From Betaproteobacteria bacterium SCN2 (lineage in GTDB: Bacteria; Pseudomonadota; Gammaproteobacteria; Burkholderiales; Thiobacillaceae): a stretch of 64,000 nucleotides of DNA. Below, in pieces: positions 11,490 to 53,267 of the stretch. The stretch lies in NCBI GenBank assembly GCA_008923285.1, contig WBSG01000027.1, positions 124,001 through 188,000 of the forward strand, given 5' to 3'. How positions within the stretch are numbered: the first letter of the stretch is position 1; each line of letters starts with the position of its first letter. The translations under genes and the position numbers were made by a program. The notes under the pieces are model-generated. The model had not been told where the DNA came from and made no database searches. It worked only from the letters and a program-made list of their open reading frames with translations.

Positions 11490-11518
11490 AAGCGGCAGCC
11501 CGGTCAGGGCCACCGCTT
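11490..11518 (-). terminator. Intercistronic hairpin after dsrC
   Basis: AAGCGG/CCGCTT and GCCC/GGGC pair around a short loop with a small internal bulge, 35 bases downstream of the dsrC stop and followed on the transcript by GTTTCG. It is probably a partial terminator or decay barrier, allowing more DsrC than DsrM to be made. Confidence 0.5.
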
Positions 11519-13120: not shown

Positions 13121-14191
13121 TTAGAAGCGAATGTGGTTGGAGGCGTTCAGGTTAACGCGAGAACCGCGCCAGTCATCAATGTGATACTTGGTGAAGGGCA
13201 GACCGGTCTTCTCGAAGAAACGGGGCCAACCAATACGGTCGATCCAGTCGATCATGCGCTCCCAGGGACGGCCGTCTTCCTTGTACACGCGCAGGATCTT
13301 CTTCACCACCTCGGCGGTCTCGGGCCAGCGCGGGGCGCTGTTGGGCAGACCGGCAGCCACCAGCTTGTGGAAGGTGGGCTTGGAGCGGGCGTTGGAGTTC
13401 TTGCCGCCAACCCAGATCGCGATCTTGGAATGCTCGGGATCGTTGATCTGCATCGGAGGGCAGGGCGGGTAGCAGGCGCCGCAGCAGATGCACTTCTTCT
13501 CATCCACTTCCAGCGAGGGCTTGCCGTTCACCAGGGCGGGACGGATCGCAGCCACCGGGCAGCGGGCCACGACAGCGGGGCGCTCGCAAACGTTGGCGAC
13601 GAGGTCGTGGTTGATCTTCGGCGGCTTGGTGTGCTGCACGATGATCGCGATGTCAGCCTGGCCGCCGCAGTTGATTTCGCAGCAGGAGGTAGACAACTTC
13701 ACGCGGTTGGGCATTTCGCACTTGATGAACTCGTCGTAGAGCTCGTCCATCAGCGCCTTCACCACGCCGGAGGCGTCGGTGCCGGGGATGTCGCAGTGCA
13801 GCCAGCCCTGGGTGTGGGCGATCATGGAAACAGAGTTGGCGGTGCCGCCAACCGGGTAGCCGGCGTCGTTGAGCGCCTTGATCAGGGGCTCGACCTTGGC
13901 TTCGTCGGCAACCATGTATTCGATGTTGGAACGGGCGGTGAAGCGCACGTAGCCGTCGCCGAACTTGTCGGCGATGTCGGACAACTCACGGATGGTGTAG
14001 GTGTCCATCTGGCGCTGAGTGCCGGCCTTGACGGTCCAGATCGCATCGCCGCTCTCGGCGCGGTGATACAGGACACCAGGCCTGGGGTGGGAGTGAAACA
14101 CCCACTTGCCGTAGTTCTTCTTCATGACCGGATGCATGAAGGGCATCGGGTCGGGTGCGCCGCTTTCGATCGGGGGACGCAAATCAGCCAT
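13121..14191 (-). CDS. dsrB: DsrB, beta subunit of reverse dissimilatory sulfite reductase
   Basis: 356 residues. Siroheme/cluster cysteines appear in STSCCEINCGG (about residues 167-175), and an inserted ferredoxin domain has KKCICCGACYPPCPPMQIND (about 231-250). With DsrA it forms the alpha2beta2 enzyme that, in this direction, releases sulfite from DsrC-bound sulfur. The C-terminus is of normal length (VNLNASNHIRF). The ATG is preceded by a GGAGG-type site (complement of CCTCC at 14201). Confidence 0.96.
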   Translation of the reverse strand: MADLRPPIESGAPDPMPFMHPVMKKNYGKWVFHSHPRPGVLYHRAESGDAIWTVKAGTQRQMDTYTIRELSDIADKFGDGYVRFTARSNIEYMVADEAKVEPLIKALNDAGYPVGGTANSVSMIAHTQGWLHCDIPGTDASGVVKALMDELYDEFIKCEMPNRVKLSTSCCEINCGGQADIAIIVQHTKPPKINHDLVANVCERPAVVARCPVAAIRPALVNGKPSLEVDEKKCICCGACYPPCPPMQINDPEHSKIAIWVGGKNSNARSKPTFHKLVAAGLPNSAPRWPETAEVVKKILRVYKEDGRPWERMIDWIDRIGWPRFFEKTGLPFTKYHIDDWRGSRVNLNASNHIRF

Positions 14192-14253: not shown

Positions 14254-15546
14254 TTAAGCGCTCTTGCGCTCTTCCCACTTGGCGACTTCCTCTTCCCAGC
14301 CATCCATGCGGACATAGGGGTTGGAACGCGGCTGGGCGACCATGTTGGGGTCGATATCCAGGCCAATGCCCTCCAGGAAGTTGACCAGACCGATACGATC
14401 GATCATCTCGCCGGTACGCTCGTGCTCCAGCGCGTTTTCGGCGAAGAAGTCGAGGATGTTGCGGGCCAGGTCGTTCAGCTTTTCGAAATCATCATCGGAC
14501 TCGAGCTTCATGAACGGAATCACCACGGTACCCATGGTGGCGCCGATCTTCAGCACGCCCTTGCCGCCGACCAGTATGGTCACGCCCTTGTCCTTGCCGG
14601 GCAGCAGGCCGCCGGGGATGACGTTCAGGCAGTGCATGCAGCGCACGCAGTTGTGGTTGTCGATTTCCATGCAGTCTTCGGCATCAACCTTGACCGCAAC
14701 CACGCCTTCAGCCTTGCTCTCGCCGCCGATTTTCTTCAGCGACAGGGCCTTGGTCGGGCACATGTTGATGACCTGGTTGACCAGCTCGCCCTTGCCATTC
14801 TTGGCAACCCAGGCCTGCACCAGCTCTTCGTTCACCTGCATGTTGTCGCGCCAGGTGCCGATGGTGGCCATGTCGGAACGCTGGATGGAGTTCACGCAGT
14901 CGTTGCCGCAGCCGGAGAACTTGAACTTGAACTTGTAGGGCAGCGCCGGACGGTGCATGTCGTCCAGGTTGTTGTTGATGACGGTGCGCAGGGCGCGGGC
15001 CTCGTCAAAGCAGGACAGTTCGCAACGGGCAGCACCGACGCAGGACATGGAGGTGCGCAGCGCGGGGCCGGCACCACCAAGATCGAAGCCGTTTTCGTTC
15101 AGCTCGTCAAAGGCAGCCTGCACGTTCTCGGTCTTGATGCCCTGGAACATGATGTCGCCGGACTGGCCGTGGAAGGCAATCAGGCCGGAGCCGTGCTTTT
15201 CCCACACGTCGCACATCCAGCGCAGGGTCTTGGTGTCGTAGTGCATGCCAGCAGGCGGCTGGATGCGCAGGGTATGGAACTCGGCCGCTTCGGGATAGAT
15301 GGGCTTTTCGTTCTCATCCTTGAGCTCGGTGAAACGGGGAATCACGCCGCCGCCATAACCGAACACGCCAACCGTGCCGCCCTTCCAGAAACCCTTCTTG
15401 GTCTTGTAGGACTCTTCCAGCTGACCCAGCAGGTCAACCATCATGTCGTTATCCTTGGCCAGACGCTTGAGGCCGGTCACAAAGCTGGGCCAGGGGCCGC
15501 TTTCCAGCTGGTCGAGCATGGGCGTGTCATACATTTTCTTAGCCAT
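14254..15546 (-). CDS. dsrA: DsrA, alpha subunit of reverse dissimilatory sulfite reductase
   Basis: 430 residues. The siroheme-[4Fe-4S] ligands are Cys169 and Cys175 (SCVGAARCELSC) with Cys213 and Cys217 (SGCGNDCVNS). An inserted ferredoxin domain follows, with Cys263 and Cys292/300/303/306 (NCVRCMHCLNVIPGG). It is the first gene of the dsr locus and is divergent from the plus-strand operon that starts at 15926. Oxidative-type assignment rests on the neighbours dsrEFH, dsrL and dsrN, which are hallmarks of sulfur oxidisers, and on the absence of a dsrD gene. Confidence 0.96.
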   Translation of the reverse strand: MAKKMYDTPMLDQLESGPWPSFVTGLKRLAKDNDMMVDLLGQLEESYKTKKGFWKGGTVGVFGYGGGVIPRFTELKDENEKPIYPEAAEFHTLRIQPPAGMHYDTKTLRWMCDVWEKHGSGLIAFHGQSGDIMFQGIKTENVQAAFDELNENGFDLGGAGPALRTSMSCVGAARCELSCFDEARALRTVINNNLDDMHRPALPYKFKFKFSGCGNDCVNSIQRSDMATIGTWRDNMQVNEELVQAWVAKNGKGELVNQVINMCPTKALSLKKIGGESKAEGVVAVKVDAEDCMEIDNHNCVRCMHCLNVIPGGLLPGKDKGVTILVGGKGVLKIGATMGTVVIPFMKLESDDDFEKLNDLARNILDFFAENALEHERTGEMIDRIGLVNFLEGIGLDIDPNMVAQPRSNPYVRMDGWEEEVAKWEERKSA

Positions 15547-15925
15547 GTTTACTCTCCGTTTCAGAAGTCAAATAATCAAAACTCACATGTGAATTCACGG
15601 TCGTGGCCCGCCTTGACGGAACCGGGCGCGATCAACGCCCTGCTGCTCACAATAAATAATTGTGTTCACGCCATAAAAAACCGTGACCGGCAGTCTACCC
15701 TCCGGCCTTGCCATAACACCATTATCAGGAAGGGTTAATACAACCTACCCAAATGGGTTATATGGCACTCCCCCCTGTTCGGGCGGCTTTCCTCTTTGCG
15801 CGGCCGGTGCCACACTTCGGGAATCTTGAATATTAGCACTTGACGTTATTGAATTCCAGAAGCCCATACATATATACATGTATGGGCTGCCCAGCACACA
15901 CCTAGCGAATTGATTCTTATAGAAA
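15547..15925. promoter_or_regulatory. Divergent regulatory region between dsrA and the plus-strand operon
   Basis: A 379-bp gap with no gene. It is AT-richer than its surroundings and carries several short palindromes: TCACATGTGA at 15583-15592; CACAAT-5-ATTGTG at 15648-15664; ACCCAAATGGGT near 15747; and the 28-nt element listed separately. I could not fix -35/-10 boxes with confidence on either strand. Confidence 0.6.
15861..15888. promoter_or_regulatory. Perfect 11-bp inverted repeat, candidate operator
   Basis: AGCCCATACAT and ATGTATGGGCT are exact reverse complements separated by 6 bases (ATATAC). The element ends 37 bases before the ATG at 15926 and lies about 315 bases upstream of dsrA. 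The symmetry, AT-rich core and position in a divergent promoter suggest a dimeric regulator site for the plus-strand operon, perhaps for both directions. An mRNA-leader hairpin is the alternative. Confidence 0.6.
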
Positions 15926-16174
15926 ATGGACGAAATCGAGATCAAGAGCCTGGAAAAGTTCACCGCCTCGCCCTACCGGCAGGAAATCGAACTCCAGCAC
16001 ATCATCCACCGCGCGGATTACGTTACCCTGCGCGTGCGCATCCGTGAAATGAAGCGTTTCACCATTTTCGACATCGACCCGCACACGGCGAAAGTCTGGG
16101 GGCAGGCCATGCTGGACTGGGCCGCGCAGAACGAAGGCCAGGCGGGCGCCGCTGCCGAAGGAGAATCCAAATAG
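15926..16174 (+). CDS. Conserved-looking hypothetical protein, 82 residues, first gene of the Cas6-like operon
   Basis: Not recognised. Small, charged and soluble, probably mixed alpha/beta: MDEIEIKSLEKF at the start, a central HHRADYVTLRVRIREMKRF-like strand-rich part with many Arg/His, then an acidic-to-Ala-rich tail. The basic middle is compatible with nucleic-acid contact, but no known motif is present. The stop codon overlaps the proposed start of the Cas6-like gene, so the two are translationally coupled. Confidence 0.75.
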   Translation: MDEIEIKSLEKFTASPYRQEIELQHIIHRADYVTLRVRIREMKRFTIFDIDPHTAKVWGQAMLDWAAQNEGQAGAAAEGESK

Positions 16175-16827
16175 GCTGGCTATACGAAGACCATGCAGAG
16201 GCGAAGGACATCGACGTCTCTGCCGTGTCGGATATCCAATTCGAGTTGAAGGGGGACGCACTCCCCCTCGATCACGCCTGGCTGCTGTACCAGGCGCTGC
16301 TCACGCTCGCCCCTTGGCTCGGCGAAGAGGCCGGGCTGGGCATCCATCCGATCCAGGGCGCCGACACCGGCGGCGGCGAGATGATCCTCAACCGCCGCGC
16401 CAAGCTGGTGATCCGCTACCCGGCAGCCCGCCTGCCCGACCTGGAAAAACTGAGCGGGCAGTCGTTCAAGGTCAACCACCATACCCTCACCCTCGGCAAG
16501 AGCAAGGTCAAGGCCCTCACCCAGCACACGCCGCTGTATGCGCATACCGTATGCACCGGCAGCGAGGACGAACAGACCTTCACGCGAGACATCCTGCGCG
16601 AGCTCGACGCGATGGACATCACCACGCGTTTTATCTGCGGCAGGCCCCAAAAGTTCTTCGATGGTGAGAAAATAGCGACCGGCTACAGCCTGATGCTGCA
16701 CGGCCTGCCCATCGAGCATGCCATCCGCGTGCAGCAGCAGGGTCTCGGCTTGCACCGCAAGCTGGGCTGCGGAATTTTCATCCCGCACAAATCCATCACC
16801 GCCGTCGGCGCAATCGACGCGGTCTGA
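16171..16827 (+). CDS. Orphan Cas6-like RAMP protein (Cas6/Cmx6, MYXAN-type family)
   Basis: Matches the Cas6/Cmx6 family, which elsewhere cleaves CRISPR precursor RNA. The C-terminal glycine-rich loop QQQGLGLHRKLGCGIFIPHK is near-diagnostic. Also seen are LPLDHAWLLYQALLTLAPWL followed by GIHPIQGAD, a strand RRAKLVIRYP and an ED-rich segment before RFICGRPQKF. No standard start lies where homologues begin. The frame is open from 16171, where an ATA follows a perfect AAGGAG with 7-base spacing and yields GWLYEDHAE, like the W-x-E/D start I recall for the family. The alternative is GTG 16225, which lacks a ribosome site and truncates the domain. No CRISPR repeats or other cas genes are in the window. 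Function here is unknown; RNA binding or cleavage is inferred from the fold. Confidence 0.82.
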   Translation: MGWLYEDHAEAKDIDVSAVSDIQFELKGDALPLDHAWLLYQALLTLAPWLGEEAGLGIHPIQGADTGGGEMILNRRAKLVIRYPAARLPDLEKLSGQSFKVNHHTLTLGKSKVKALTQHTPLYAHTVCTGSEDEQTFTRDILRELDAMDITTRFICGRPQKFFDGEKIATGYSLMLHGLPIEHAIRVQQQGLGLHRKLGCGIFIPHKSITAVGAIDAV

Positions 16828-16871
16828 TTTTTTGTTTTTTTGTCCAACCAAACCACATAGGAGCATCAATC

Positions 16872-17204
16872 ATGGGAGTCATGTACAACGGCGAAGAACT
16901 GGAAACCGGCGAAGAGGATTTCCTGCTGGAGCCCGTATACGATGACGAGATCTGCCCGATCCTCGCGGAAAAGGAAAAAATCACCCTGACCGACGACCAC
17001 TGGTTCGTCATCAACTGGCTGCGCGATCAGTACAAGCAGCACGGCCAGACCCCCAACTTCCGCAACATGCTGATCGCGCTCAAGGAAGAAGACGACAGCA
17101 AGGACTGGAAAACCCTGCTCTACACGCTGTTCCCCAACCAGCCCGCTCGCCAGGCCGTGCGCGTCGCCGGCCTGCCCAAGCCTTACGGCAAGGGCGGCTA
17201 CTGA
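16872..17204 (+). CDS. DsrC/TusE-family protein lacking both C-terminal cysteines
   Basis: 110 residues, collinear with DsrC (GEEDFLLEPVYDDEI, DDHWFVINWLRDQYKQHGQT, LYTLFPNQPARQAVRVAGLP). At the two redox positions it has Val96 and Lys107, so the C-terminal arm cannot carry sulfur. The only cysteine, Cys28, is outside the arm. DsrC-like proteins without these cysteines have been proposed to be regulatory or structural. AGGAG lies 8 bases before the ATG. A strong hairpin follows the gene. Confidence 0.9.
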   Translation: MGVMYNGEELETGEEDFLLEPVYDDEICPILAEKEKITLTDDHWFVINWLRDQYKQHGQTPNFRNMLIALKEEDDSKDWKTLLYTLFPNQPARQAVRVAGLPKPYGKGGY

Positions 17205-17231
17205 TCGGCTCGTCACCCGATCCGGGAAACT

Positions 17232-17262
17232 CGCCCGCCGTCTTGCCCCAAGGCGGCGGGCG
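17232..17262 (+). terminator. Strong hairpin after the cysteine-less dsrC-like gene
   Basis: A 14-bp stem (CGCCCGCCGTCTTG with CAAGGCGGCGGGCG, one G-U pair) closes a 3-base CCC loop and is followed by ATTTCTTTCT. It should terminate or attenuate transcription between the first three genes and the rhodanese gene, which starts 28 bases further on. Confidence 0.65.
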
Positions 17263-17289
17263 ATTTCTTTCTGAAGCAGACAGGAACAC

Positions 17290-18141
17290 ATGAGCTACAC
17301 CACACTGATTTCCACGCAGGAACTGGCCACCCATCTGGGCGATCCCAACTGGGTCATTTTCGACTGCCGGTTCACGCTGACCGACCCCGAAGGCGGACGT
17401 CAGGCTTACGAAGCTGGACACATTCCGGGCGCGCGCTACGTGCATCTGGACAACGATCTGTGCAGCCCGATGGGCGAGAAGACCGGGCGCCATCCCCTGC
17501 CTGATCCCAGGATGCTGACGGAAAAACTGTGCAAATGGGGCGTGGGCATCAATCGTCAGGTCGTGGTCTACGATGACAGCTTCGGCTCCATCGCCGCACG
17601 CATGTGGTGGCTGTTGCGCTGGCTCGGCCACCCGGACGTGGCGTTGCTGGACGGCGGCTACCCCAAGTGGACGCGCGAAAAGCGCCCGATCGCCAAGGAA
17701 GCGCCCGTGGACATCCACAGCGCATCCTGCGCCTGCCTGCCCGAACGCAGCCAGTGGACCTCCGCCGAGGAGGTCATGCAGGCCATGCACGAAAACGCCA
17801 GCCGCCTGATCGATGCGCGCCCCGACCGCCGCTTTACCGGCGAATACGAACCCTTCGACCCGGTGCCTGGTCATATCCCGGGGTCGGTCAACTGGCCGTT
17901 CGAGGAAAACCTCGACATCGACGGCACCATGCTGCCGCCGGAAGCCTTGCGCGAACAATACCAGGCGCTGCTGCACGGCGCCGCGCCGCACGAAATCATT
18001 CATCTGTGCGGCTCCGGCGTCACCGCCTGCCTCAACGTGCTGGCCATGGAAGCGGCCGGCCTGCCGGGTTCGCGGCTTTACCCCGGGTCCTGGAGCGAAT
18101 GGATCACCGATCCCTCGCGTCCGATTGCCACAGGAGAATGA
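17290..18141 (+). CDS. Two-domain rhodanese (3-mercaptopyruvate/thiosulfate sulfurtransferase)
   Basis: 283 residues with two rhodanese domains. The N-terminal one is inactive, with the usual interface motifs (AYEAGHIPGARYVHLD, GVGINRQVVVYDD). The C-terminal one has the catalytic Cys240 in the loop HLCGSGVTAC; the CGSGVTA form is the type found in mercaptopyruvate sulfurtransferases such as SseA. It would move sulfane sulfur to thiol acceptors in the cytoplasm. The stop at 18139-18141 is one base before the next ATG, so it is coupled to the following gene. Confidence 0.92.
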   Translation: MSYTTLISTQELATHLGDPNWVIFDCRFTLTDPEGGRQAYEAGHIPGARYVHLDNDLCSPMGEKTGRHPLPDPRMLTEKLCKWGVGINRQVVVYDDSFGSIAARMWWLLRWLGHPDVALLDGGYPKWTREKRPIAKEAPVDIHSASCACLPERSQWTSAEEVMQAMHENASRLIDARPDRRFTGEYEPFDPVPGHIPGSVNWPFEENLDIDGTMLPPEALREQYQALLHGAAPHEIIHLCGSGVTACLNVLAMEAAGLPGSRLYPGSWSEWITDPSRPIATGE

Positions 18142-18142
18142 C

Positions 18143-18718
18143 ATGAGCGGCATACGCGTAAAAACTTCATGGTTTCGCGAAGGCGAGGATGGCCACGGCC
18201 CCGAGGAACAGGCCTCGGCCTTCGCCGTGACCATCTGGAAACTGGCGGACAAGGCGGTCATCAACCTGTCCAACGCCGACTATGACATCATCACCCCGCA
18301 GCGCGGCTTCACCCTGCTGGCCGAACTCATCGCCTACATGGTGCACACGGTCGACCGCATGGTGCATGGACGCATCGTCGACGAGGAACGCGCCGAACTC
18401 GTCGGCGCCCTGGGCGTGAAAATGGCCGAGATCCTGGAAGACAACATCCACTCCGTCGTCGGCGACCACGACCACCCCTACGTCGAAGCCATCCTCGGCA
18501 AGTTCAACCAGCGCTGGGCCGACTACGCCGAATTCGACTTCGATCCGGAGAATCCCGATTTCGTGGTCAAGCGCTACCTCGCCAACTGCATCCGCGAAGT
18601 GATGGAAGCGCGCGACCAGTCCTGGATTGCCGACCAGATTATCGAGATCGAGGCGCCGGCCTTCATCAGCCCGATCAAGAAACAGATCGAGGCGTTTTAT
18701 CCCAGGCACGAAGGTTGA
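18143..18718 (+). CDS. Conserved-looking hypothetical protein, 191 residues
   Basis: Not recognised. Acidic and largely helical by eye, with a His/Met-containing helix (YMVHTVDRMVHGRIVDEERA) and a histidine-rich turn (VVGDHDHPYVEAIL), which could bind a metal. A later aromatic acidic patch (WADYAEFDFDPENPDF) precedes helices containing the only cysteine (LANCIREVME). There is no signal peptide or membrane segment. It starts one base after the rhodanese stop, after a GGAG site, and overlaps the next gene's TTG start, which places it firmly in the operon. Confidence 0.8.
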   Translation: MSGIRVKTSWFREGEDGHGPEEQASAFAVTIWKLADKAVINLSNADYDIITPQRGFTLLAELIAYMVHTVDRMVHGRIVDEERAELVGALGVKMAEILEDNIHSVVGDHDHPYVEAILGKFNQRWADYAEFDFDPENPDFVVKRYLANCIREVMEARDQSWIADQIIEIEAPAFISPIKKQIEAFYPRHEG

Positions 18719-19605
18719 GCTTGATCCGCCCGGACAGCCCCTTCCATCCCGACAACGGCGCCGCCTACCAGGCCTGGCGCGATGCCAAGCTGCGCGGCTA
18801 TCCGCAGCGCGTCGAAGAACTGGTCGTGAAAGTCGCCGACCCCAAGGCGCTCACCGCAAAAGAACACGCCGCCCTGCTGGAACGCTGCCGCAAGACCAAC
18901 ATGGCGATCTACGCCGGGCCTGACCTCGGCGAAGACAAGGACATCCCGCGTCTGATGGGCCGGCAGTTCGGCCTGGAACGCCTCGACGCCAACCTGATGT
19001 CGGACGAGGACGACATCAGCACCCTGACCGTGGCGGAAAACGGCGAGAAGAAGGGCGATTTCATTCCCTACACCGACCGCCCCATCCGCTGGCACACCGA
19101 CGGCTACTACAACCGCCCCGACCGCCAGATTCTCGGCATGATGCTGCACTGCGCAGCACCCGCAGCGGAAGGCGGCGCCAACGCCCTGCTCGACCACGAA
19201 ATTCTCTACCTGCTGCTGCGCGACGAGAACCCGGCGCACATCCGCGCGCTGATGCAGGAAGATGCCATGTCCATTCCCCCGCGCATGGACGCCAATGGCG
19301 TCGCGCGTGCGGAGGAAACCGGCCCCGTGTTCTCCACGCTGCCCGGCGGCCAGCTGCACCTGCGCTACACGGCGCGCACGCGCTCCATCGCGTGGAAGCA
19401 GGACGCCGCCACGCAGGCCGCGGTTGCCGCCATCGACAAACTGCTGGGCCAGGATCTGCCGTGGAAATTCCAGCACAGGCTGGAAGCCGGCATGGGCCTT
19501 TTGTGCAACAACGTGCTGCATGACCGCACCGGCTTCGTCGACTCGCCCGGGCACAAGCGCATCATGTACCGGGCACGCTATTACGACCGCATCGGCCAGA
19601 CCTGA
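18715..19605 (+). CDS. TauD/TfdA-family Fe(II)/2-oxoglutarate dioxygenase
   Basis: 296 residues from a TTG that overlaps the preceding TGA; a second TTG at 18721 is possible. The iron-binding HxD is in RWHTDGYYN (His127, Asp129). The distal histidine is in NNVLHDRTGF, followed by the conserved RxxxRxR-type end (HKRIMYRARYYDR). Family members hydroxylate small molecules such as taurine, or other substrates. It has no taurine-uptake genes nearby, so the substrate is probably different; the neighbouring ferredoxin-reductase fusion could supply electrons or sense redox state. Confidence 0.88.
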   Translation: MSLIRPDSPFHPDNGAAYQAWRDAKLRGYPQRVEELVVKVADPKALTAKEHAALLERCRKTNMAIYAGPDLGEDKDIPRLMGRQFGLERLDANLMSDEDDISTLTVAENGEKKGDFIPYTDRPIRWHTDGYYNRPDRQILGMMLHCAAPAAEGGANALLDHEILYLLLRDENPAHIRALMQEDAMSIPPRMDANGVARAEETGPVFSTLPGGQLHLRYTARTRSIAWKQDAATQAAVAAIDKLLGQDLPWKFQHRLEAGMGLLCNNVLHDRTGFVDSPGHKRIMYRARYYDRIGQT

Positions 19606-19627
19606 TCCGGAAACCGCGCATACCGCC

Positions 19628-21106
19628 ATGTCCCAGCAGCTCGCCATTTCCCGCGCCGCCAAGCTGATCGGCATTTCGCGCGCGACCCTGCAAAAGCGCA
19701 TCAAGGAGGGGGGGCTGCATTCCTTCGACGGCACCATCTCCACCGAAGAGCTGCTGCAGCTCTACCCCGACCTCAAGCTCGAGGATAGCGGCCTGTTCGA
19801 GCAGACCCGCAGGATCAAGGAAGAAGCCTTCCGCCGCCGCATCATGGACCGCACCCTGCCGGCCAAGGAAGTGCTGGCCGAGCGTCTGTTCGAACAGGGC
19901 ATGGAGCTCAACGATCTCAAACTGCACCTGCAGCACTACCACACCCTGGTGGTCGGTCTGCAAAATCGGATTCGTGAACTGTCGGCAAGCCCGCCCGCAG
20001 CCGAGACTGCACTCGCACAGCTTGATCAGTGGCTGGAAAGCGAGCTGCAGCACGTGCTCGGCCAGGAGCAAAAGCCTGACTCGCTTGAAGTAATGGATGC
20101 TATGCTCAAAGTCATGTCGGCCCACGTCACCTTGCAGCCCTCCGGCCGGGATTTCTTCGTCGAGGGCAACGATACCCTGCTCGAAGCCGCGCTGAAGGCA
20201 GGGCTGGCGCTCAATTACGGCTGCAGCAGCGGCAATTGCGGCCTGTGCAAGGCACGCGTCATTTCCGGCCAGGTCATGAAGACCAGGCATTACGATTACG
20301 TCCTGTCCGACCCGGAAAAACAGCAGGGCTATACCCTGATGTGCAGCCACACGGCGGTGAGCGACGTGGTGCTGGAAGCGCTCGAGGCCAAATCCGCCAC
20401 TGACATTCCCAAGCAGCAGTTGACCGCGCGCGTCAAATCCGTGACGCATCTGAGCGAAGACATGATGCTGCTGCACCTGCAGACGCCGCGCAGCCACCGC
20501 CTGCGCTTCCTCGCCGGGCAGAGCGCCACGCTGGGCCATGCATCGGCCGGCTCGGCGGAATTCCCCATCGCCAGTTGCCCCTGCAACGACCGCGACCTGC
20601 AGTTCCATGTCGAGCGCGGACTCGGCGGCGCCTTCGGCGAACGGGTGTGGAACGGCCTGAAGGCCGGCGAAAATGTCACGGTCTATGGTCCGTGGGGCGA
20701 CTACCTCCTCAACGAGGACACCCAGAACGACGTGATCTTCGTCGCCTTCGACCGCGGCTTCGCGCCCATCAAGAGCTTGCTCGAACACAGCATGGCGCGC
20801 GAGTCGAACGAAGAAATGGGCCTGGTATGGGGCGCGTCATCCCCGGACGGCCACTACATGAACAACCTGTGCCGCGCCTGGGCCGATGCTCTCGAGAACT
20901 TCCATTACCTGCCGGTTTCCATGGCCAACCGCGATTCGACCGGGGCCGCCGTCGCCGGCGTGGTGGAAAAGCTGCTGGCCGATTTCCCCGGGGCACGCCA
21001 GGCGGATGTCTATCTGGCCGGACCTGAAATCTACCTCACGCCTGCCGTCGAGCAACTCGTCGCGGCAGGATTCCAGAAATCCCGACTCACCGCCATGGCG
21101 GTGTAA
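19628..21106 (+). CDS. HTH-coiled-coil-2Fe-2S-reductase fusion protein
   Basis: 492 residues. Residues 5-45 form a small helix-turn-helix (SRAAKLIGISRATLQKRI). Residues ~55-145 are helical and charged, probably a coiled coil. Residues ~165-255 are a plant-type ferredoxin domain with cluster ligands Cys199, Cys204, Cys207 and Cys239 (CSSGNCGLC and LMCSH). The rest is a ferredoxin-NADP reductase-like module. In that module the flavin motif R-x-Y-S appears as EFPIAS, without the arginine, and the usual GTGxAP nucleotide motif as DRGFAP. It may be a redox-sensing regulator or a reductase with altered cofactor use. It follows the oxygenase by 22 bases. Confidence 0.85.
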   Translation: MSQQLAISRAAKLIGISRATLQKRIKEGGLHSFDGTISTEELLQLYPDLKLEDSGLFEQTRRIKEEAFRRRIMDRTLPAKEVLAERLFEQGMELNDLKLHLQHYHTLVVGLQNRIRELSASPPAAETALAQLDQWLESELQHVLGQEQKPDSLEVMDAMLKVMSAHVTLQPSGRDFFVEGNDTLLEAALKAGLALNYGCSSGNCGLCKARVISGQVMKTRHYDYVLSDPEKQQGYTLMCSHTAVSDVVLEALEAKSATDIPKQQLTARVKSVTHLSEDMMLLHLQTPRSHRLRFLAGQSATLGHASAGSAEFPIASCPCNDRDLQFHVERGLGGAFGERVWNGLKAGENVTVYGPWGDYLLNEDTQNDVIFVAFDRGFAPIKSLLEHSMARESNEEMGLVWGASSPDGHYMNNLCRAWADALENFHYLPVSMANRDSTGAAVAGVVEKLLADFPGARQADVYLAGPEIYLTPAVEQLVAAGFQKSRLTAMAV

Positions 21107-21127
21107 ACCAAACTTGAAGGAACCGAC

Positions 21128-21436
21128 ATGTCAGACGACAAAACCAAAGAACTCGCCGCCAAGGAAATGAGCGTCGAGCAACGCATCCTGCGCGCCATGC
21201 GCAAGACCCTGGCCAGCGTGGTGCGCGACGCCACGCCGCGTCCCGGGACCTCGGGCTTTCTGTCCGACGATACCGTGGAGCAGATCAAGTCCTGCTTCGA
21301 ACTGATCGCCACGCGCGAACGCGAACTGGGCGACGCGCTGGGCCTTGCCGAATCCCGGCCGGTTTACCCGGATCAGGAGCAAGGCGCCAAGCCCGTCCAG
21401 ATCACCCGCAAGAAGACCGACAGCACCACGCACTGA
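21128..21436 (+). CDS. Hypothetical protein, 102 residues, last gene of the Cas6-like operon
   Basis: Not recognised. Begins MSDDKTKELAAKEMSVEQRI, then a short amphipathic helix (LRAMRKTLASVVRDATPRPG), an acidic central helix with the only cysteine (EQIKSCFELIATRERELGDA) and a basic tail (ITRKKTDSTTH). No signal peptide or membrane span. It follows the fusion gene by 21 bases with AAGGAA before its ATG, and its stop codon forms part of a hairpin shared with the convergent gene. Confidence 0.75.
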   Translation: MSDDKTKELAAKEMSVEQRILRAMRKTLASVVRDATPRPGTSGFLSDDTVEQIKSCFELIATRERELGDALGLAESRPVYPDQEQGAKPVQITRKKTDSTTH

Positions 21437-52928: not shown

Positions 52929-53267
52929 ATGAACGCTCCCGCCTCCCTGAATACCCTGATGCCCCAGCGCGATGCCGAGGGTTACCTGGTCGAGCCGGCC
53001 GACTGGAACGAGGACATCGCCAAGGTCCTGGCCGCCGAGGAAGACATCGTAATGAGCGACGACCACTGGTCTGTCATCCGTTTCATGCGCGACTACTACG
53101 ACGAACACCAGGTCGCCGCCGACGCCCGCTTCGTCATCAAGCACCTGGAAGAGCGCATCGGCAAGGATGCACGCAAGAAGCTGTTCGAGCTGTTCCCCTA
53201 CGGACACGTCAAGCAGACTTGCAAGATTGCCGGCATGAAGCGCCCGCGTGCCTGGAGCACGGGCTGA
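52929..53267 (+). CDS. DsrC/TusE-family protein with only the inner cysteine
   Basis: 112 residues, collinear with DsrC (GYLVEPADWNEDIAKVLAAE; DDHWSVIRFMRDYYDEHQV; LFPYGHVKQTCKIAG). Cys98 matches the inner cysteine of DsrC, but the penultimate cysteine is lost: Trp109 stands there and two extra residues follow. It cannot form the intramolecular disulfide of DsrC. TusE keeps the other cysteine, so this is neither. GAAAGGAG precedes the ATG. Confidence 0.9.
   Translation: MNAPASLNTLMPQRDAEGYLVEPADWNEDIAKVLAAEEDIVMSDDHWSVIRFMRDYYDEHQVAADARFVIKHLEERIGKDARKKLFELFPYGHVKQTCKIAGMKRPRAWSTG

Follow-up and report, generated by a model that had tools for sequence, protein, structure and literature searches.

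An operon that is transcribed divergently from dsrA in Betaproteobacteria bacterium SCN2 (Thiobacillaceae) encodes a homolog of the CRISPR ribonuclease Cas6 (gene 2), a paralog of DsrC that ends in KGGY (gene 3), and a helical protein of no recognized family (gene 5, g5), and these three are co-inherited with dsrAB, the genes of the dissimilatory sulfite reductase (Dsr). The operon occupies positions 15926-21436 of the window, i.e., the 64,000-nucleotide stretch that was analyzed (GenBank assembly GCA_008923285.1, contig WBSG01000027.1, positions 124,001 to 188,000), to which the coordinates below refer. In purple sulfur bacteria, thiobacilli, vent symbionts, and marine sulfur oxidizers, Dsr operates in reverse and powers the oxidation of sulfur. 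That the module is tied to this pathway is virtually certain, and the arrangement of its genes is far beyond chance. We propose, with a probability of roughly 0.4, that the operon is an accessory module dedicated to reverse Dsr in Gammaproteobacteria, with the homolog of Cas6-family RNA endonucleases at its center, and that it would set the amount or the assembly of the Dsr proteins.

Co-inheritance with dsrAB

The first-pass annotation of this DNA had proposed that co-occurrence with dsrAB be looked for outside the source genome, and the association proved strong. In a sample of 275 genomes from 222 genera of the class (in the GTDB sense, the source genome included), the Cas6-like gene was present in 91 and dsrA, at a threshold of E 1e-60, in 92; both were found in 86 (Fisher p 3.4e-57). 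Approximately 56 families, according to a hand-made list, hold the two genes, and genomes of just 1.0-1.4 Mb are among the holders of the module. So strict a tie to dsrAB, kept even in genomes of that size, suggests that the genes are likely needed for the pathway. All 62 pairs in which the Cas6-like gene and dsrA lie at most 6 kb apart are divergent, with a median distance of about 1.7 kb. Over 46 loci, the distances between DsrA proteins correlate with those between the Cas6-like proteins (Spearman 0.69, null maximum 0.14), as expected under joint inheritance. Within the Thiobacillaceae, the Cas6-like gene is found in 57 of 59 high-quality genomes; the dsrA model matched in all 59 at E 0.001, which is permissive enough to catch dsrB too, and its own cutoff was exceeded in 82 of 100 genomes of the family.

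Five genomes have the Cas6-like gene and no dsrA match. They look like assembly gaps, because the locus is at a contig end in one (G226), a partial dsrA lies at a contig edge in another (G318), and the Cas6-like gene is on short contigs in the remaining three (G166, G192, G285). The Cas6-like gene was not found in six genomes with dsrA, three of which are at least 94% complete (G209, G222, G306), and genuine exceptions may exist among them. In a phylum-wide sample, in which reverse-Dsr lineages outside the class are hardly represented, 4 of 299 genomes matched, all of them in the class. Many relatives (G046, G068, G080, and others) carry two or three copies of dsrA, a single one of which adjoins the module.

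A Cas6 homolog outside CRISPR

Gene 2 (16225-16827, plus strand) belongs to the core of the module and codes for a Cas6/Cmx6-like RAMP protein of 200 residues with a GTG start (PF09559, E 1.5e-59), which NCBIfam model TIGR02807 identifies as a type I-MYXAN Cas6/Cmx6 (155 bits, cutoff 98.85). Its AlphaFold2 model has a pLDDT of 93.9 and was aligned by VIA-align with the Cas6 of a type I-B CRISPR-associated transposon (CAST; 8fcj_B) over 189 residues, with a Z score of 26.0 and a root-mean-square deviation (rmsd) of 1.4; alignments with other Cas6 proteins, including those of Pyrococcus, gave Z 15-17 and rmsd 2.6-2.9 over 184-191 residues. Homology to the CAST Cas6 was also detected by hmmsearch (E 9.6e-28). 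The control set was made of cyanobacterial Cas6 homologs, four of them in cas operons. The D16-H17 pair, R64, and a GCGxF loop are common to the dsr-linked protein and the cyanobacterial CRISPR Cas6. H17, a conserved histidine of the first helix that we take from its position to be the likely catalytic one, is kept in 93% of 61 Cas6-like sequences and is also present in five cyanobacterial homologs. In contrast, R58, E116, G139, H188, and K189 hardly vary among the dsr-linked proteins and are largely missing from the controls, which marks out a subfamily under a constraint of its own.

TIGR02807 scores the protein above its cutoff, PADLOC calls it Cas6, and its homology to the CAST Cas6 is clear, so the locus might be thought to be a remnant or an active part of a CRISPR-Cas system. 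This reading is extremely improbable and was rejected as a general explanation: no Cas1 was found in the source genome, which is 99.86% complete, nor any convincing CRISPR array in 141 neighborhoods of the locus, where the one candidate was a doubtful three-copy repeat (L062). Cas1 was detected in 42 of the 91 genomes with the Cas6-like gene vs. 62 of the 184 without it (p 0.049), which is hardly any association, and the near-perfect tie is to dsr instead, the genes that flank the Cas6-like gene being dsr genes. A sharing of the operon with CRISPR arrays in relatives, which the first-pass annotation had considered, was not borne out, as the locus is without convincing arrays or cas genes there too. 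Thus, the Cas6 fold and the conserved histidine have been kept while the CRISPR partners are absent. A defense system was likewise rejected, since the PADLOC matches were limited to Cas6 models and weak helix-turn-helix (HTH) hits. As TIGR02807 and PADLOC both score Cas6 strongly, the orphan Cas6 that automatic pipelines report in sulfur oxidizers is likely to be the dsr-linked gene, and such reports should be read with this warning in mind.

No Cas6-like gene was found on viral contigs. A Cas6/Cmx6 homolog without annotated neighboring cas genes occurs on the Gloeobacter plasmid pGMOR1 (L171:4968-5759), where it adjoins genes of the PAPS-reductase and cupin families.

The KGGY-tailed paralog of DsrC

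Gene 3 (16872-17204, plus strand; 110 residues), also part of the core, encodes a member of the DsrC fold family (PF04358, E 7.4e-29; TIGR03342). It had been described at first sight as a DsrC-like protein without redox cysteines, and this holds well beyond the window: KGGY replaces them at the C terminus of 52 of 53 linked paralogs, while the canonical DsrC of the same loci ends in CKIAGLPKPTGC(I/V) and keeps its cysteines. In the alignment, both the two conserved cysteines of the C-terminal arm of DsrC and the sulfur-accepting penultimate cysteine of TusE are absent from the KGGY protein, so that persulfide carriage at its tail is impossible. Cysteine-less relatives of DsrC were reportedly named RspA by Venceslau et al. 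in 2014, with a suggested role in regulation, and the KGGY paralog, as a DsrC-family protein without the conserved cysteines, would belong to this group. The cysteine residues of DsrC and TusE have been described, and DsrC is homologous to TusE, a component of the 2-thiouridine relay (PMC3397948).

Five viral DsrC proteins with neither cysteine motif have been counted, and a TusE function was assumed for them (PMC8190135). Part of these may be the KGGY paralog, which would provide a handle on the question of cysteine-less viral dsrC genes. A KGGY-tailed DsrC paralog is encoded beside phage genes (the endonuclease phrog_452, phrog_480, and phrog_8676) on one contig (IMGVR_UViG_3300032087_002997; L242:2974-3315), and a second contig (L243) encodes one as well. 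The source genome has seven genes of the DsrC family, including one at 52965-53249 of the window and others on contigs C20 and C22; two of the products end in RPRAWSTG, with a single cysteine near the C terminus.

Core and lineage-specific genes

The eight plus-strand open reading frames were all confirmed on checking, their GTG and TTG starts being inferred, as was their divergence from dsrA; the domain types first assigned to them (Cas6/Cmx6, DsrC-like, two-domain rhodanese, TauD, HTH-ferredoxin reductase) were borne out by profile searches. Two details of the first-pass annotation need correction: the 82-residue protein that it called basic is actually slightly acidic, and the genes that overlap or abut form two pairs only (genes 4/5 and 5/6), where three had been given. 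Its treatment of the eight genes as a single system must also be abandoned. Counting only those of 80 named loci that had sufficient flank, dsrA was found in 66/66, g5 in 72/72, the KGGY protein in 75/78, and the TauD-type oxygenase in 50/66, as were DUF6967 in 74/78 and the rhodanese in 71/75, vs. 5/62 for the HTH-ferredoxin reductase and 7/60 for the 102-residue protein. The class-wide core is made of the Cas6-like protein, the KGGY-tailed DsrC paralog, g5, and the TauD oxygenase, and the small protein encoded upstream differs in most families. The rhodanese and DUF6967 belong mainly to the Thiobacillaceae and near relatives, and genes 7 and 8 are nearly confined to close relatives.

Two layouts emerge from the neighborhoods of 60 loci. 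In the Thiobacillaceae and their relatives, dsrA faces away from the genes for DUF6967, the Cas6-like protein, KGGY-DsrC, the rhodanese, g5, and TauD, in that order. In other gammaproteobacterial families, including genomes of 1.0-1.1 Mb that are probably SUP05-like or of symbiont type, judging by their size and content, TauD comes first, followed by a different small protein, the Cas6-like protein, KGGY-DsrC, further genes, and g5. The oxygenase gene has thus moved position, yet it is kept in most loci; loci of the Sulfuricella type have no linked oxygenase and keep the remainder. The small upstream protein of the second layout was rejected as a homolog of DUF6967, with which it shares a short motif only (P 0.009, probability 4.7%); DUF6967 itself was found in 7 of 274 genomes of the class and is therefore not class-wide. 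The g5 profile matched in 90 of the same 274 genomes, 87 of them in common with the 91 that have the Cas6-like gene (p 1.7e-62). As the two genes are 465 kb apart in one complete genome (G208) and 64 kb apart in another genome (G215), their shared presence does not merely reflect linkage. Near the module, loci of the second layout (L044, L046, L058) often have a PKHD-type hydroxylase, another 2-oxoglutarate (2OG) oxygenase, and DUF6866 as well.

Gene 6 (18715-19605, plus strand; 296 residues, TTG start), a core gene in most families, encodes a TauD-type Fe(II)/2OG oxygenase (PF02668, E 5.6e-19). In 48 sequences, H120, D122, and H262, which form an HTD...H motif, are conserved at 96-98%, and the 2OG-binding arginines at 275-281 are conserved as well; judged by these residues, the protein should be active. 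Its similarity to characterized members is weak, the best match in the PDB having an E value of 0.0028. The protein g5 (18143-18718, plus strand; 191 residues) is another core component. Its model, of six helices (pLDDT 86.6), has as its top structural neighbor a homolog of the cytochrome-assembly chaperone Cbp3 (6rwt; Z 9.1, rmsd 4.5, 160 aligned residues), a score too low to be relied on for helical bundles; the next neighbor had Z 6.7. We regard the resemblance as no more than a lead. No PF03981 match was found in 43 members of the g5 family, and homology to Cbp3 by sequence was not supported (hhalign against 29 PF03981 members, P 0.18; ungapped test, p ~0.1). Foldseek gave no significant match to the g5 model in the PDB or among viral models. 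The invariant residues of g5 are W10, W32, E61, N101, and N122.

Among the other genes of the operon, gene 1 (15926-16174, plus strand) codes for the 82-residue DUF6967 protein (PF22295, E 3.9e-27). Gene 4 (17290-18141, plus strand), which is lineage-specific, encodes a two-domain rhodanese of 283 residues (E 1.1e-32) with Cys240 in the motif CGSGVTAC. Gene 7 (19628-21106, plus strand; ATG at 19628), a nearly genus-limited passenger, encodes a fusion of approximately 492 residues between a Fis/HTH-like domain and a 2Fe-2S ferredoxin reductase, and gene 8 (21128-21436, plus strand), also nearly genus-limited, encodes a 102-residue protein without family match. On the other side, dsrA (14254-15546, minus strand; TIGR02064, 504 bits) codes for the reverse-type alpha subunit, and dsrB (13121-14191, minus strand), which adjoins it across the loci compared, served as an anchor. 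Close relatives in named records are of the Thiobacillus, Sulfuricella, and Sulfuriferula types.

Control sites and candidate RNA

The region between dsrA and the operon (15547-15925) was compared over 150 loci. A palindrome recurs in it: many Thiobacillaceae have it as ACCTACCC-N4-GGGTAGGT, and other families as TATCCC-N4-GGGATA. The latter, gamma form was found without mismatch in 13 of the 150 loci and with at most one mismatch in 25, vs. none of 150 shuffles with at most one. In a search of the family, the 14-base core had 0-5 copies per genome, and the copy adjacent to dsrA was the sole one or one of few in many genomes. In the window, the CCC-N4-GGG palindrome is degenerate (CTACCCAAATGGGTTA, 15745-15760); this copy, a candidate operator, is weak, with four mismatches to the gamma consensus. 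A DNA operator is favored over an RNA hairpin, because the palindrome is symmetric and has no wobble bias; on the same grounds, the idea of an RNA hairpin private to the dsrA leader was rejected. A second, near-perfect palindrome upstream of gene 1, AGCCCATACATATATACATGTATGGGCT (15861-15888), was found in the source genome alone among those compared and was dismissed as a conserved element. A scan of the intergenic region for sigma-70 promoters and terminators gave nothing above shuffles.

On the dsr mRNA itself, a hairpin (AAGCGGTGGCCC-TGACC-GGGCTGCCGCTT; 11490-11518, minus strand) directly follows dsrC and is a candidate substrate of the Cas6-like protein. A hairpin at this place was seen in most loci examined, with differing sequences, and is strong in the window; high levels of dsrC mRNA may be due to it, or it may be where processing occurs.

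Proposed function and alternatives

Under the reading that we prefer, the module would act on Dsr by way of an RNA; the first-pass annotation had suggested that the genes could together modify, process, or regulate an RNA in response to sulfur or redox state. The Cas6-like protein would bind, and probably cut, a cellular RNA hairpin, the simplest candidates being one in the dsr transcript, for instance after dsrC, or one in its own leader. The KGGY protein, as a redox-dead analog of DsrC, might bind a partner of DsrC or TusE and report on DsrC or compete with it, the 2OG oxygenase might supply an O2, iron, or 2-oxoglutarate signal or modify a part of the module, and g5 might be a partner or a chaperone. 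In this way, sulfur and redox state would determine how much Dsr protein is present or how it is assembled. In its most far-reaching form, the proposal is that a Cas6-family endoribonuclease was permanently recruited to reverse Dsr and that, together with a redox-dead mimic of DsrC with the KGGY tail, a 2OG oxygenase, and g5, it makes up a general RNA-processing control module for Dsr in Gammaproteobacteria; we regard this as tentative, somewhat short of an even chance.

Several points weigh against it. Two loci of small genomes (L058, L059) have the Cas6-like gene and no hairpin after dsrC, and hairpins of this kind can be attenuators of the ordinary type. The palindrome between dsrA and the operon, with wobble in both directions, carries no RNA-specific signal and bears a closer resemblance to a DNA operator. 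The usual substrates of TauD-family enzymes are small molecules, and g5 matches no recognized family. The RNA target of the Cas6-like protein is a candidate only, and genome-scale coupling does not reveal a mechanism.

The tight tie to dsrAB, together with a DsrC-fold protein that is incapable of redox chemistry at its tail, would also suit a factor for the assembly or maturation of DsrAB or a partner protein, without RNA regulation. In such a scheme, g5 would be a chaperone, as its structural proximity to the Cbp3 homolog 6rwt might suggest, the KGGY protein would fill the site of DsrC while assembly proceeds, a subunit would be hydroxylated by the oxygenase, and the RAMP protein would be a scaffold or bind the mRNA under translation. 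However, the profile comparison between g5 and PF03981 is not significant, helical bundles often reach Z scores near 9 by chance, and the conserved RNase histidine is left unexplained; we consider this explanation unlikely. A little less likely again is a metabolic side pathway in which the oxygenase acts, for instance, on an organosulfur compound, the Cas6-like protein being a bare RAMP fold and no RNA step being involved. TauD homologs often free sulfite from sulfonates, and the rhodanese of the Thiobacillaceae and the additional 2OG oxygenases near some loci of other families fit such a role, but the retention of H17, R64, and the Gly-rich loop over some 56 families would not be expected of a bare scaffold, and the Sulfuricella-type loci keep the remainder of the module without a linked oxygenase.

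At about the same low level, if not slightly lower, stands modification of a tRNA or rRNA, e.g., the protection or alteration of thiolated tRNA at high sulfur flux, in which the KGGY protein would compete with TusE, the RAMP protein would pick the RNA, and the oxygenase would modify it. The kinship of DsrC with TusE (PMC3397948), the RAMP fold, and the Gloeobacter plasmid gene, which lies outside a cas operon and near a gene of the PAPS-reductase family, are in favor of this view. On the other hand, the presence of the module tracks dsrAB and not general tRNA thiolation, and the substrates of the families nearest to the oxygenase are small molecules or free amino acids.

The findings as a whole suggest that a major pathway of sulfur metabolism has an RNA-linked step that has gone unrecognized. 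They offer a rare instance in which a ribonuclease family of CRISPR has become fixed in metabolism, and they provide a concrete list of genes for deletion in model strains. The current annotations of these genes are CRISPR Cas6, generic sulfur relay protein, dioxygenase, and hypothetical.

Comparison with known systems

To our knowledge, no known system combines the parts of the module. In the open-access literature, no description of it was found, and Cas6 goes unmentioned in two large comparative papers on Dsr. The Cas6-like protein resembles Cas6 of types I-MYXAN and I-B (Cmx6) in whole-length homology, fold, D16-H17, R64, and the GCGxF loop; unlike them, the dsr-linked copies are without cas operon, array, or Cas1, and have R58, E116, G139, and a C-terminal PHK that are mostly not in the controls. 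The KGGY paralog belongs to the fold family of DsrC and TusE and lies beside dsr genes, but both tail cysteines are swapped for a fixed KGGY, which precludes persulfide and disulfide chemistry there. The gene 6 protein has the HxD...H and arginine motifs of TauD/TfdA oxygenases such as TmpA, BBOX, and TMLH, whereas its branch is found in the dsr-linked locus and is far from any characterized enzyme. As for Cbp3, the ubiquinol-cytochrome c chaperone (PF03981), it is the top structural neighbor of the g5 model, but a significant relation between the sequence profiles is lacking and the similarity may be accidental. Finally, the module is co-inherited with dsrAB, as are the accessory genes dsrN, dsrR, dsrS, and dsrL, and it differs from these in being a divergent transcription unit with an RNA-endonuclease fold.

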